From: Clostridia bacterium
Lineage (GTDB): Bacteria; Bacillota; Clostridia; Christensenellales; CAG-138
DNA length: 64,000 bases
Direction of reading: 5' to 3'
Assembly: GCA_017435905.1 (NCBI GenBank)
Contig: JAFSEB010000063.1
Location: 1-64,000 of the forward strand
Shown: positions 10,870 to 15,644 of the stretch, piece after piece
Numbering within the stretch: the first letter of the stretch is position 1
How the letters are laid out: each line of letters begins with the position of its first letter
Made by a program: the position numbers and the translations under genes
The notes under the pieces: model-generated
Seen by the model: only the letters and a program-made list of their open reading frames with translations
Database searches by the model: none
What the model was told of the DNA's origin: nothing

Positions 10870-12507
10870 ATGCTTAAAAAAGAGGATTCTCCGGGAAAGG
10901 ATGGGTGGAAAACCGTGTTTGAACAAATATCGGAAATCTTTGGCTTCGGCAAAAACAGCGAAGCCTTTGAATTGCTTGAAACGGAAAGCGGAATGCCGCC
11001 GCCCCTTGGAAGGGCGAAGGATGGGCATCGGGAACGGAAAAAGGAAGCGGAGCGCAGTATCGGCGCCTCCATTACCGAAAACGAAGCGATGATGCGCCGC
11101 TTGTTCCGTGCGGATATCAATAAAGATCTTATTTTCCGCTCTTTTTTGCTCAGCGGCAATATTCCTGCATTCCTTGTTTATGTGAACGGCATGGCGGATG
11201 CAAAGCAGGTAAGCGATTTTATCCTTCGGGATGGAATGGTAAAGGGCTGCATGGATGATGCAAAGGGAGACATCGCTTCCTTTGCCGTGAAGCGTGTGTT
11301 TACGGTGGGGGAAGCCGTAACGGAAAAACGGGAAAACAGGATCAGACAGGCTATCCTTGACGGAAAGACGGCGGTATTTATCGACGGGGCAGACAGCGCC
11401 GTGCTGATGGATACACGGGGCTACGAAAAAAGAACGGTCGGGGAACCGCAGGCGGAAAAGGTGGTGCTCGGGCCGCAGGAAGCCTTTGTGGAAAACCTGC
11501 GAACGAACATCACGCTGCTGCGGCGCATTCTCCGAATGGAGGATCTTGTGTGCGAAATGCGCAGCGCAGGGGGCGAAAACGGCATCAATGCGGCGCTTCT
11601 GTACAGGGAAGGCATTACAAATATCACCCTTGTGGAAGAGATCAAGCGCAGGCTTGCACGGATAAACACGCTGTCCGTGATCGGAACGGGCATCATGCAG
11701 CAGCTGATCGAGGAGCATTCGCTTTCGCCCTTTCCGCAGTTTTTGCAGACGGAGCGGCCGGACAGGGCAGCATCTCTTCTGATGGAAGGGCATGTGATAC
11801 TCCTTCTTGACGGCAGCCCCTACGCAAGCGTGATGCCTGCCACCGTTTTTACCTTGATGACCAGCGCAGAGGATGCCTATATGCGGCGGCCGCAGGCTAC
11901 GGTGATCCGCATCGTACGCTGTATCGGTGCGGTGATCTCCATACTGCTGCCGGCGCTGTTTCTCTCACTGGCGCTGTTTCATCAGGGATTGCTGTCAACG
12001 GAGGTGCTTACCACCGTGATCGCATCAAGAAAGATGGTTTTTGCTCCCATCGGGGCGGAAATGGTATTTCTGCTTCTCGTATTTCAACTGATCCGTGAGG
12101 CAGGCATGCGTGTGCCGGGGAACATCGGGCAGGCGATCGGCATCATCGGCGGTTTGATACTCGGGCAGGCAGCGGTGGCGGCAAACCTTGCAAGCTCCGT
12201 GGTGCTGATCGTGGTGGCGCTGACGGGTCTTGGAAATTTCTGCATACCGGATTATGAAACACAGCTTGCAGCCTCGTTTTTTCGCTTGTCTCTGGCGCTG
12301 GCGGCGTGGGCAGGCGGTCTTCTTGGCGTTGCTTGTCTTGGAACTGTTTTTACGGCATGGCTCACGGTGTTAAAATCCTTCGGGCTGCCCTTTCTTGCAC
12401 CTTTTGCGCCGAAAACAAGGTCAAAACGTCCTATGATCCTCCGGGGAAGGATCCGCATGCATGCCGGGGCGGAGGATATGCTCAATACGAAGGAGGGAGA
12501 TGCATGA
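10870..12507 (+). CDS. Spore germination receptor A subunit (GerA family)
   Basis: About 545 residues. The N-terminal half is soluble (SFLLSGNIPAFLVYVNGMAD, then IEEIKRRLARI-like helices) and the C-terminal half has membrane segments (AVISILLPALFLSLALF, AEMVFLLLVFQLI). RVPGNIGQAIGIIGGLILGQ is the signature of GerA A subunits, which sit in the spore inner membrane and take part in germinant sensing and ion release. The start is uncertain: ATG 10870 gives the usual N-terminus (MLKKEDSPGKDG) but its AGAGGA is about 20 nt away; the frame is open further upstream. It overlaps the B subunit gene. Confidence 0.9.
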   Translation: MLKKEDSPGKDGWKTVFEQISEIFGFGKNSEAFELLETESGMPPPLGRAKDGHRERKKEAERSIGASITENEAMMRRLFRADINKDLIFRSFLLSGNIPAFLVYVNGMADAKQVSDFILRDGMVKGCMDDAKGDIASFAVKRVFTVGEAVTEKRENRIRQAILDGKTAVFIDGADSAVLMDTRGYEKRTVGEPQAEKVVLGPQEAFVENLRTNITLLRRILRMEDLVCEMRSAGGENGINAALLYREGITNITLVEEIKRRLARINTLSVIGTGIMQQLIEEHSLSPFPQFLQTERPDRAASLLMEGHVILLLDGSPYASVMPATVFTLMTSAEDAYMRRPQATVIRIVRCIGAVISILLPALFLSLALFHQGLLSTEVLTTVIASRKMVFAPIGAEMVFLLLVFQLIREAGMRVPGNIGQAIGIIGGLILGQAAVAANLASSVVLIVVALTGLGNFCIPDYETQLAASFFRLSLALAAWAGGLLGVACLGTVFTAWLTVLKSFGLPFLAPFAPKTRSKRPMILRGRIRMHAGAEDMLNTKEGDA

Positions 12508-13622
12508 AACTGTCGGAAGGAAGGATCGGCAATGCAGAGGGGATCGGCTTTCTTGGGATCGCCCTCACGGTGAACGGGCTTTTTGTGCTCGATATTGCAG
12601 AAGACTATCGCCTCGGCAACACGGCTTATCTTGCTTTTCCGGCAGCGATCCTTTTGGGGCTTGCTGTGTTTCTTCTTCTTTGGGGCGCCATGCGCCTTTC
12701 GGGAAAGCAGTCGCTTCCTGCGTTACTTGACCATGCTTTGGGAAAAACAGCAGGAAGCCTTGTGCTTGCTCTTCTGATCGGGCTGCTTTTGTTTGATGCA
12801 TACTGCCTGCTGTCCCGTTTCGTGACGATGGTGCATACCCTCGTTTATGGAAACGATACCGTATTCACGATACTCGTTTGGATCACGGGCACCGCTGCGT
12901 GCATAGCGTTTTTGGGGTTTGAGTGCATCGGGCGGCTGGCAAAATGCTTTGCCCCCGTGCTTCTTTTGCTGCTTCTTTGCGAGCTTGCGATCCCCATCGA
13001 AAGCTATGAAGCATATCGGCTTTTTCCGCTGCCGGAAGATGCGTTTTCCCATGCGGCGGCGGATGCGGTACGGGGCAGCTTTGCCGCCCTGCCGCCGCTC
13101 GTGCTGCTGCTTTGCTTCGGCAATGGGCTGCAGGGGCTGGCAAGCATCAGGCGTATCGGGGTGATCGCAGCGTTATCCGCTGCGGCTTTGACCTGTGCCG
13201 CACAGCTTTGCATCGGCATGGTATTCGGGGCGGATGAACTGCAGAAAACATTCATCCCCCTTTATGAACTTAACATTAAAATGGTGGCGGAAAGCTATTT
13301 CTTCCGCCTTGATAAGGTGGCACTCTTTCTGTGGCTGATCGGCGCTGTCATCACGGCGGCATATGAGACATACGGTGCTGCCAACCTGTTCTGCCGCCGT
13401 TTTTCAAGGTACGATGCAAGACCACCCGTGATCGCTTTTTTTGCGCTGCTGCTGTGCAGCATAGCGGCGGAGCATGCGGGCTGTTATGCGCTTCTTACGG
13501 ACTTGTTTGATTTTGTACACCGCTTCGGTGCGGCGGTGCTGCTGTCTGTGCTTGCATCGGCAGCAGCGGTGTCGCTGCTCAGAAGCGCATGGAAAAGGAG
13601 AAAGCTCCATGAAGCGCAATAA
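12504..13622 (+). CDS. Spore germination receptor B subunit (GerB-type permease)
   Basis: This 372-residue protein has about ten membrane segments and belongs to the GerAB branch of the APC transporter superfamily, which binds the germinant in characterised receptors. It starts KLSEGRIGNAEGIGFLGIA, with segments such as AYLAFPAAILLGLAVFLLLW and GSLVLALLIGLLLFDAYCLL. AGGAGGG lies 6 nt before the ATG. The start overlaps the stop of the A gene as ATGA and its end overlaps the C gene by 14 nt, so the three are one translational unit. Confidence 0.9.
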   Translation: MKLSEGRIGNAEGIGFLGIALTVNGLFVLDIAEDYRLGNTAYLAFPAAILLGLAVFLLLWGAMRLSGKQSLPALLDHALGKTAGSLVLALLIGLLLFDAYCLLSRFVTMVHTLVYGNDTVFTILVWITGTAACIAFLGFECIGRLAKCFAPVLLLLLLCELAIPIESYEAYRLFPLPEDAFSHAAADAVRGSFAALPPLVLLLCFGNGLQGLASIRRIGVIAALSAAALTCAAQLCIGMVFGADELQKTFIPLYELNIKMVAESYFFRLDKVALFLWLIGAVITAAYETYGAANLFCRRFSRYDARPPVIAFFALLLCSIAAEHAGCYALLTDLFDFVHRFGAAVLLSVLASAAAVSLLRSAWKRRKLHEAQ

Positions 13623-14814
13623 ACTCCTGCTTTTGTGCATGCTGCTTCTGTTGCCGCTGTTTTCGGGCTGCCTTGATGCGGTGAGCCTTGATGCGTACGG
13701 CTATGTGCTGTCGATCGGCGTAGATGAAGGGGAAACAAAGACCTTCAACGTATCCTTCCTTTTGCAGAAGGAAGGCACTTCGCAGGAATCGCAGACAGGG
13801 GCAGGTTCCTATGTGATCGGTGCGGAAGGAAACGATCTTTTTGAGGCGGTGCGCATCGCCCATGCAGGCTTACCCTTTGAGCTGAACTTTTCAAGGGTGA
13901 ACTTCCTGCTGTTTTCCGATGCGGTTGCTTCCACCGGACGCATGGATGAATTTCTGCGCTTTTCCTTTGATCTGATGAAGATCCGTCAATCCGCAAAGCT
14001 GCTGGTAGTAAGGGGAAAATGCAGCGATTACCTGCAGGGGCTGTCCTCTGCCGATCAGCCGAATGTAGCAAAGCGGCAGTACAGCTATTTCCGCACCTAC
14101 AAAACGGAGGGCATCATTATGATGACGAACCTTGCGGTGTTTCGGGAAGCGGTCATGAGCGGCACATTCGATGCGCTTGTTCCGGCAGGGGAGGTGGATG
14201 CTTCCATCATGCCGCAGCAGGGGGTGAATACCCGGAAAACGGATCTCCCTATCAACGAAAATGATACAACGGGCGGCGTAAAGCGAACGGGTGGGCTGCG
14301 TTCCTATCTTCTTGAAAGCGCACTGTTTGATGGGGAAAGGCTGGCAGGGTTTATCGATGCGGATGATACGGAAGTGATACTGATGGCGTGCGGTGATTTT
14401 GAACGGGGACATGTGACGCTGCAGGATACATTCGGCACGACGGGGTTTGTTTTGATCGCAGCGGGTGAACCGCAGGTCACACTTACCCTCGGCGATGCGC
14501 CCCATGCTTCTGTGCATGTTCCGCTTTATGCACAGATCGAGCTTGATACGGGAAACACGGCATGGAATCGCTGGGAGAGCGAACTGAAGGCGGAGATCGA
14601 AACGCATCTTGCGGAGGAGATGCATCGGGTTTTTCTGCAGATAAGGGAACTGAATTCCGATGCCATGCGCTTCGGTACCCGTGCGGTGAAGCAGTTCCAA
14701 AGCCATGATGCCTGGCGTGATTATGCGTGGAAGCAAAAATACAAAAGCATGACGGCGGATTTTTCCGTGACCGTCATGCTCAGCGACAGGATCATATCAA
14801 ACAGGGGTGATTAA
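13609..14814 (+). CDS. Spore germination receptor C subunit, lipoprotein (GerC family)
   Basis: The 401-residue protein has a lipoprotein signal peptide with lipobox FSGC (mature Cys followed by LDAVSLDAYGYV), as usual for GerAC proteins on the outer face of the spore inner membrane. The N-terminal part LSIGVDEGETKTFNVSFLLQ and the C-terminal WRDYAWKQKYKSMTADFSV fit the family. AAGGAGAAAG lies before the ATG at 13609, inside the end of the B gene. Confidence 0.9.
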   Translation: MKRNKLLLLCMLLLLPLFSGCLDAVSLDAYGYVLSIGVDEGETKTFNVSFLLQKEGTSQESQTGAGSYVIGAEGNDLFEAVRIAHAGLPFELNFSRVNFLLFSDAVASTGRMDEFLRFSFDLMKIRQSAKLLVVRGKCSDYLQGLSSADQPNVAKRQYSYFRTYKTEGIIMMTNLAVFREAVMSGTFDALVPAGEVDASIMPQQGVNTRKTDLPINENDTTGGVKRTGGLRSYLLESALFDGERLAGFIDADDTEVILMACGDFERGHVTLQDTFGTTGFVLIAAGEPQVTLTLGDAPHASVHVPLYAQIELDTGNTAWNRWESELKAEIETHLAEEMHRVFLQIRELNSDAMRFGTRAVKQFQSHDAWRDYAWKQKYKSMTADFSVTVMLSDRIISNRGD

Positions 14815-14835
14815 TGGGCAAAAGAAAGGAACGGG

Positions 14836-14997
14836 ATGAAAGTGACTTCGATCATGATCCTTGGCGGCGCAGCGCTAATATACTGCGCTGCATATTTTGT
14901 ATACTGCCTTGGCAGGGGCCCGGCGAGGGATGCGATCGGCGCAGCGGTGCTGTGCATGCTTACCGCCGCCGCAGCGGTCTTTCTTGCGGTGTGCTGA
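14836..14997 (+). CDS. Two-pass 53-aa membrane protein, candidate germination D subunit
   Basis: A 53-codon frame begins at ATG 14836 with AAAGGAACGGG directly upstream, 21 nt after the C-subunit stop. The product is almost entirely two membrane segments, TSIMILGGAALIYCAAYFVY and AIGAAVLCMLTAAAAVFLAV, joined by CLGRGPARD. In Bacillus several gerA-type operons carry a fourth gene (gerD-subunit genes) for a short two-segment protein that modulates the receptor. Position and topology fit that role here; sequence similarity cannot be judged at this length. It ends one base before the convergent DUF3006 gene. Confidence 0.6.
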   Translation: MKVTSIMILGGAALIYCAAYFVYCLGRGPARDAIGAAVLCMLTAAAAVFLAVC

Positions 14998-15222
14998 TCA
15001 ATCCGCATCATCCTGTGCGGCAAGAAGCCGCTTCAGCTTCTGCTTTGCCAAAAGACGCCGGTGTTCGGTAGCGCCTGCATTGACCGTGTAGGCGCCGCCT
15101 TCACGGTCAAGCACGTCACCTTCTTTGGCACAGGGGGCGATCAGCTCTTTCGGGATGCGGAGCGTCCCCTCTTCGTTTTCGCAGACCGCATAGCCGTTTT
15201 CAAATCTGTCGATCACCAGCAT
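14998..15222 (-). CDS. DUF3006 family protein
   Basis: The 74-residue protein starts MLVIDRFENGYAVCENEEGT and continues IPKELIAPCAKEGDVLDREG, the pattern of DUF3006. The N-terminal part looks like a small beta-barrel and the C-terminal HRRLLAKQKLKRLLAAQD is a basic helix. The function of the family is unknown. GGGGAGGG lies 7 nt before the ATG. It is convergent with the 53-codon gene, with no room for a terminator between their stops. Confidence 0.8.
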   Translation of the reverse strand: MLVIDRFENGYAVCENEEGTLRIPKELIAPCAKEGDVLDREGGAYTVNAGATEHRRLLAKQKLKRLLAAQDDAD

Positions 15223-15392: not shown

Positions 15393-15644
15393 ATGGAACG
15401 CTCCTATGGCGAAATGAGAATCACACCTGAATTGTTGGAAGAATTGAAACGAAAAGCAATGATCCTTGAAGATGAGCTTGCGATCGAGGGCGGACGTGTG
15501 TTTGAAGCAACGGGCCGTTTGAATGATCCTGCCATCTGCAAAATGGGCGTTGAATATGAAAACCTGCAATTCGATATCGCAAAGTTCGAAACCCTGCTGA
15601 AAGAGGCAGAGGCTGCCGAATCCGATAAAAAAGGCAACAGCTGA
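15393..15644 (+). CDS. Small helical protein, function unknown
   Basis: This 83-residue protein is predicted almost entirely helical (ITPELLEELKRKAMILEDEL and QFDIAKFETLLKEAEAAESD), acidic and soluble. AAGGGAGG lies 7 nt before the ATG. I do not recognise a family; the SQELD signature of Spo0E-type phosphatases, which are of similar size, is not present. It is a single-gene unit ahead of cdaA with about 110 nt between them. Confidence 0.65.
   Translation: MERSYGEMRITPELLEELKRKAMILEDELAIEGGRVFEATGRLNDPAICKMGVEYENLQFDIAKFETLLKEAEAAESDKKGNS

Follow-up and report, generated by a model that had tools for sequence, protein, structure and literature searches.

A small two-helix membrane protein encoded behind gerC as a probable fourth subunit of A-B-C-order germinant receptors in Clostridia

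Most descriptions and models of germinant receptors show an A-B-C complex and treat D as an optional extra; D subunits have been described for some Bacillus receptors, whose sensitivity they modulate (PMC4661057). GerUD of B. megaterium is a 76-residue protein whose topology, measured in E. coli, places an outward loop of ~20 residues between termini that lie in the core; it works even when reversed, a single helix of it suffices, and its authors proposed that it acts as a chaperone (PMC4661057). A second D subunit, GerID, has been placed in the GerI protomer by AlphaFold 3 (PMC13170314). For C. botulinum there is mention of a 74-residue GerX(x) and of a small conserved protein encoded next to type 2 receptors (PMC5083711). 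Our literature search, most subscription papers being outside its scope, found no paper naming this protein's family and no experiment on any of its members.

The locus lies in a 64,000-nucleotide stretch of DNA (the window) from a Clostridia bacterium. Below, D2 is our label for the protein encoded at 14836-14997 and its relatives, labels beginning with G are genomes and those beginning with L are loci, and counts for the window's family refer to the taxonomic family of the source genome (G000). The features of the operon are as follows.

10870-12507, plus strand: gerA, GerA-type germinant receptor A subunit, 545 residues, start codon uncertain (PF03323, E-value 4.5e-141)
12504-13622, plus strand: gerB, B subunit, Spore_permease/GerAB, 372 residues (PF03845, E-value 5.8e-19)
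13609-14814, plus strand: gerC, C subunit, Ger(x)C, 401 residues (PF25198, 7.1e-22; PF05504, 3.3e-16; TIGR02887, 1.2e-36)
14825-14835, plus strand: Shine-Dalgarno-like AAAGGAACGGG, read in the sequence directly 5' of the D2 ATG
14836-14997, plus strand: D2 gene, 53-residue two-helix membrane protein, the operon's fourth gene (from position, motif, dN<dS and a predicted helical hairpin)

The start of gerB overlaps the stop of gerA, and the start of gerC overlaps the end of gerB. The gerC stop (TAA, 14812-14814) is followed after 21 nt by the D2 ATG at 14836, which opens a frame of 53 codons ending in TGA (14995-14997) with the translation MKVTSIMILGGAALIYCAAYFVYCLGRGPARDAIGAAVLCMLTAAAAVFLAVC; a preliminary description of the window had reported this 53-residue frame 21 nt 3' of the C-subunit gene, and its coordinates, stop and start read exactly so. 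The window's D2 protein has no match in Pfam or NCBIfam, and the gerA of this operon is the only GerA gene found in the source genome (2.24-Mb assembly G000, contig C53). Two other frames over the same DNA were considered and set aside: a plus-strand frame at 14814-15071 (85 residues, joined to gerC by a TAATG overlap) has no Pfam match and is not kept in three of four same-genus relatives, and a minus-strand frame at 14811-15023 (70 residues) is no more conserved than the sense frame would predict. Downstream, a convergent DUF3006 gene (14998-15222, minus strand) meets D2 stop codon to stop codon (junction 14995-15000), and an 83-residue frame lacking Pfam and NCBIfam matches lies at 15393-15644 (plus strand), between the DUF3006 gene and a cdaA-ybbR pair.

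We put at roughly 0.7 the probability that the product of 14836-14997 is a small accessory subunit, the fourth, of the GerA-type receptor whose genes lie just upstream. The GerC protein had homologues in 35 relatives besides G000, from which 30 loci of other genomes were taken, 29 of them with readable DNA 3' of gerC. The preliminary description had proposed looking for short two-pass frames in related ger operons, and a hydrophobic two-helix frame of 50–62 residues was present at the same place in 28 of these 29, starting between -20 and +32 nt relative to the gerC stop; conservation in close relatives, on which that description let its proposal stand or fall, was thus what we found. The sole exception (G028, locus L017) has no such frame, its next gene being MscL-like. 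The aligned family sequences share Y-x3-Y-x2-[YHF]-[CS], followed by lysines or arginines and then the second helix; the motif of D2 is Y-x3-[YF]-x2-[YHWF]-x2-[KR]. In the D2 frame dN was below dS in ten of ten same-genus pairs (dN 0.3–0.56, dS 0.9–3.75, dN/dS about 0.1–0.5, the ratios being rough as the pairs are divergent and dS is near saturation); in the +1 forward frame this held for a minority of pairs, and the relation was mostly the reverse. By these comparisons D2 is under purifying selection; with the recurrence of the frame in 28 of 29 relatives, this shows that 14836-14997 is a real, conserved gene.

To follow D2 further we used a search profile built from 28 sequences of the window's family only and run over whole genomes; in the source genome itself it matched at 6.0e-14, this D2 sequence being part of the profile. 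Matches were found in 82 of 103 genomes of the window's family (two of them, in G601 and G657, in long frames and probably spurious), in 70 of 391 genomes of the class and in 12 of 398 of the phylum, the window included. When the best 40 matches outside the family, none of which had contributed to the profile, were fetched, 37 adjoined a GerC gene (27 of 29 in the class, 10 of 11 in the phylum), the other three being a 124-residue frame, a 146-residue frame and a match with an internal stop. Altogether 149 distinct D2 members were collected, 143 of them at gerC (a figure partly by design, most loci having been taken around receptors), with a median ATG offset of 4 nt. Copies also occur in Negativicutes, in Desulfotomaculaceae/Desulfallaceae and in one genome of Bacilli, Siminovitchia thermophila (a weak match, 1e-3); other named carriers are Clostridium homopropionicum, C. 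manihotivorum, C. folliculivorans, C. oryzae, Pelosinus propionicus, Pelotomaculum terephthalicicum and Thermoclostridium caenicola. Scanning public data with the A subunit gave 80 loci, 61 with D2, the named carriers among them; eight had downstream DNA and no D2 call, a D2-like hairpin frame being visible by eye in L279 and L300, and the frame is missing from at least five of the named A-B-C loci. In three loci (L317, L333 and L336) the order is A-C-D2-B: gerB has moved to the end and D2 still stands behind gerC.

The type of receptor with which D2 occurs proved to be restricted. We annotated 140 of the best 150 GerC places listed in the class search, together with the window; these had been picked on GerC score and not on D2. 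In this GerC-chosen sample D2 accompanied 34 A-B-C operons and none of 83 A-C or A-C-B operons, and 17 A-B-C operons carried neither D2 nor a second two-helix protein of ~70–79 residues, here D1, which was found in 63 of 72 A-C-B, 6 of 11 A-C and two A-B-C operons. A FastTree phylogeny of 144 A subunits, 20 of them added from the window's family, placed the D2 operons in a single clade (51 of 52 rows; support 99; two changes needed), the support being local and the placement of long rows unsure; the clade operon without D2 is L249. D2 is nearly fixed in one clade of A-B-C-order receptors across Clostridia; given L249 and the at least five named A-B-C loci without the frame, it is not essential everywhere. 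Some genomes, G343, G227 and G417 for example, have one receptor of each kind, A-C-B with D1 and A-B-C with D2. This one clade of receptors across Clostridia thus probably possesses a fourth subunit that has escaped notice until now. The fuller proposal, that a major clostridial receptor clade is four-subunit, with D2 near-fixed and vertically inherited (one gain, rare loss), its topology opposite to that of GerUD and DUF3953 (see below) the recognised tip of its family, we hold with somewhat better than even confidence.

D1, which carries the motif IPSP (A-C-B loci within L097-L236, e.g., L102, L106 and L121), is class-wide, and its profile matches small proteins of receptor operons of Bacilli (L351 and L349; 1.9e-9 and 5e-8); the D1 members scanned had no match in Pfam or NCBIfam. 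Behind gerC in L215 and L232 lies a third type of small two-helix protein, with that of L125 similar by eye; the L232 protein matches NCBIfam NF042414 (the CLC_0170 family), which suggests that this family, too, is receptor-linked.

A hydrophobicity profile of the window's D2 protein shows two segments, and AlphaFold2 gave helices at residues 3–27 and 30–52 (mean pLDDT 76, pTM 0.47), so that the protein is predicted, with moderate confidence, to be a helical hairpin of two transmembrane segments joined by a loop. With these predictions and the 28 of 29 relatives, the earlier suggestion of a two-pass product encoded by the fourth gene of a receptor operon is well supported. Among the 149 distinct members a tyrosine occupies match position 12 in 123, and tyrosine or phenylalanine position 16 in 148. 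Mean net charge was +2.4 for the loop and 0.26 and 0.40 for the tails, and the loop exceeded both tails in 114 of the 149 and fell below one tail in 13; the loop of the window's own member is weakly positive (R, R, D). Applied to all 149 members, the positive-inside rule predicts that the loop faces the core and that the two ends lie outside.

We propose that D2 is made together with its receptor in the forespore and would form a two-helix hairpin in the inner membrane of the spore, with the short positive loop in the core and the ends outside. Helix 1 would then pack with its conserved aromatic face (Y-x3-Y/F-x2-aromatic) on the membrane domain of A or B, and D2 would tune the assembly or the gating, that is the germinant sensitivity, of its receptor. 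Which surfaces meet and which way the effect goes are guessed by analogy with the genetics of GerUD and GerKD and with the AlphaFold 3 placement of GerID in GerI. As single or reversed helices suffice in GerUD, the role of D2 may be one of loose packing or chaperoning and not of a precise interface.

The source genome encodes Spo0A and SpoIVA; SpoVAC and SpoVAEB were not found in its assembly, and the absence of SpoVAC is likely an assembly gap because all four genus mates have it. Across the window's family D2 and SpoVAC are associated (77/3/12/11, Fisher p 1.7e-6, shared ancestry ignored). All eight genomes of one genus, g11 (G014, G035 and G654-G659), are without SpoVAC and without a credible D2, and SpoIVA is absent where listed, as expected of a lineage that has lost sporulation. 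A scan with a simple sigma-G pattern 5' of gerA found it at one of 33 loci against 1.2 expected, i.e., no enrichment.

Of the other readings, the one that survives best, while still unlikely at perhaps one chance in a few, is that D2 is a very distant true member of the D1 family of D subunits (~73 residues), shortened at its C-terminus. Both proteins are hairpins with a short positive loop between two transmembrane segments, both are encoded at receptor operons, and the two are nearly mutually exclusive by receptor clade; however, neither profile hits the members of the other, and the conserved IPSP segment of D1 is absent from D2. An hhalign comparison scored 16.7 (probability about 21%) against 16.6 for a reversed-D1 control, and since the scores are equal the match reflects a hydrophobic pattern only, and no homology is shown. 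A little less plausible still is that D2 acts as a chaperone or assembly factor, helping for instance GerC to insert or A and B to fold, and is absent as a stoichiometric component from the mature receptor: it always stands beside gerC, even where gerB moves, and for GerUD a chaperone role has been proposed and a single helix suffices (PMC4661057), but AlphaFold 3 puts GerID, though a D subunit of another type, inside the receptor protomer (PMC13170314).

Very improbable is a chance linkage to the receptor of a holin-like or toxin-like two-helix protein that has nothing to do with germination; isolated weak Pfam matches to Phage_holin_2 and others would fit this, yet they concern single members at E-values above 0.005, the association is vertical and confined to one receptor clade, and a tblastn search of plasmids and phages with a DUF3953-type D2 member found nothing. 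Least credible, and already disproved to the extent that sequence allows, is a spurious frame or translation-coupling element giving no functional protein, which the short, hydrophobic character of the frame and the openness of the same DNA elsewhere (85 residues from 14814, 70 on the minus strand) might suggest, but against which stand a motif and position kept across classes, dN below dS in the D2 frame, and alternative frames that are unconserved and broken by stops in most relatives.

If the clade is nearly always four-subunit, as our preferred reading of D2 as an accessory receptor subunit would have it, reconstitution, structural models and heterologous expression done without D2 may be incomplete; the clade in question occurs in gut, rumen and soil sporeformers. 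What is gained is a gene family that can be defined, a setting in which to place DUF3953, and non-pathogenic carriers for testing, e.g., C. homopropionicum and C. manihotivorum.

As to known families, a Pfam/NCBIfam scan of 110 aligned D2 members found one recurring family, the Pfam family of unknown function PF13129 (DUF3953), matched by six of the 110 (best 8.1e-15, L216, at a receptor operon). Single scans gave L216 54.7, L290 36.2 and L177 24.5 bits against a cut-off of 22 bits; the window's D2 protein has no DUF3953 match, and most members fall below detection. From these matches D2 includes DUF3953 and supplies its context. A search of PDB sequences with the D2 profile returned nothing. 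The CLC_0170 family (NF042414) is likewise small, with two transmembrane segments, and its gene directly follows gerC in some A-B-C operons, but the L232 protein is 70 residues long, differs in sequence and belongs to another receptor clade than D2. D1 resembles D2 in its two transmembrane segments, positive inter-helix loop and receptor operon, yet D1 has a conserved IPSP and a C-terminal segment, both missing from D2, and occurs in Clostridia in A-C-B operons as well as in L351 (Cytobacillus) and L349 (Peribacillus).

For the comparison with characterized D subunits we used GerUD, taken as the frame at L032:4602-4832 on the minus strand and identified by its 76 residues and the positions of its segments. 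GerUD matches neither the D1 nor the D2 profile, and hhalign of D2 against GerUD gave a probability of 0.2%, i.e., no profile similarity. The likeness to Bacillus D subunits drawn in the preliminary description therefore holds for a D-like fourth gene with a two-pass product and fails for size, predicted topology and detectable similarity to GerUD; it is, on this comparison, a likeness by analogy only. GerUD has 76 residues, a long outward loop and termini in the core, whereas D2 mostly has 50–62 residues and a short positive loop predicted to lie in the core, a topology that is opposite to that of GerUD if the positive-inside prediction holds. D2 also stands, unlike the Bacillus D subunits, directly behind gerC in an A-B-C clade; it shares with GerUD, GerKD and GerID the character of a small protein with two transmembrane segments whose gene lies within or next to an operon for a GerA-type receptor.
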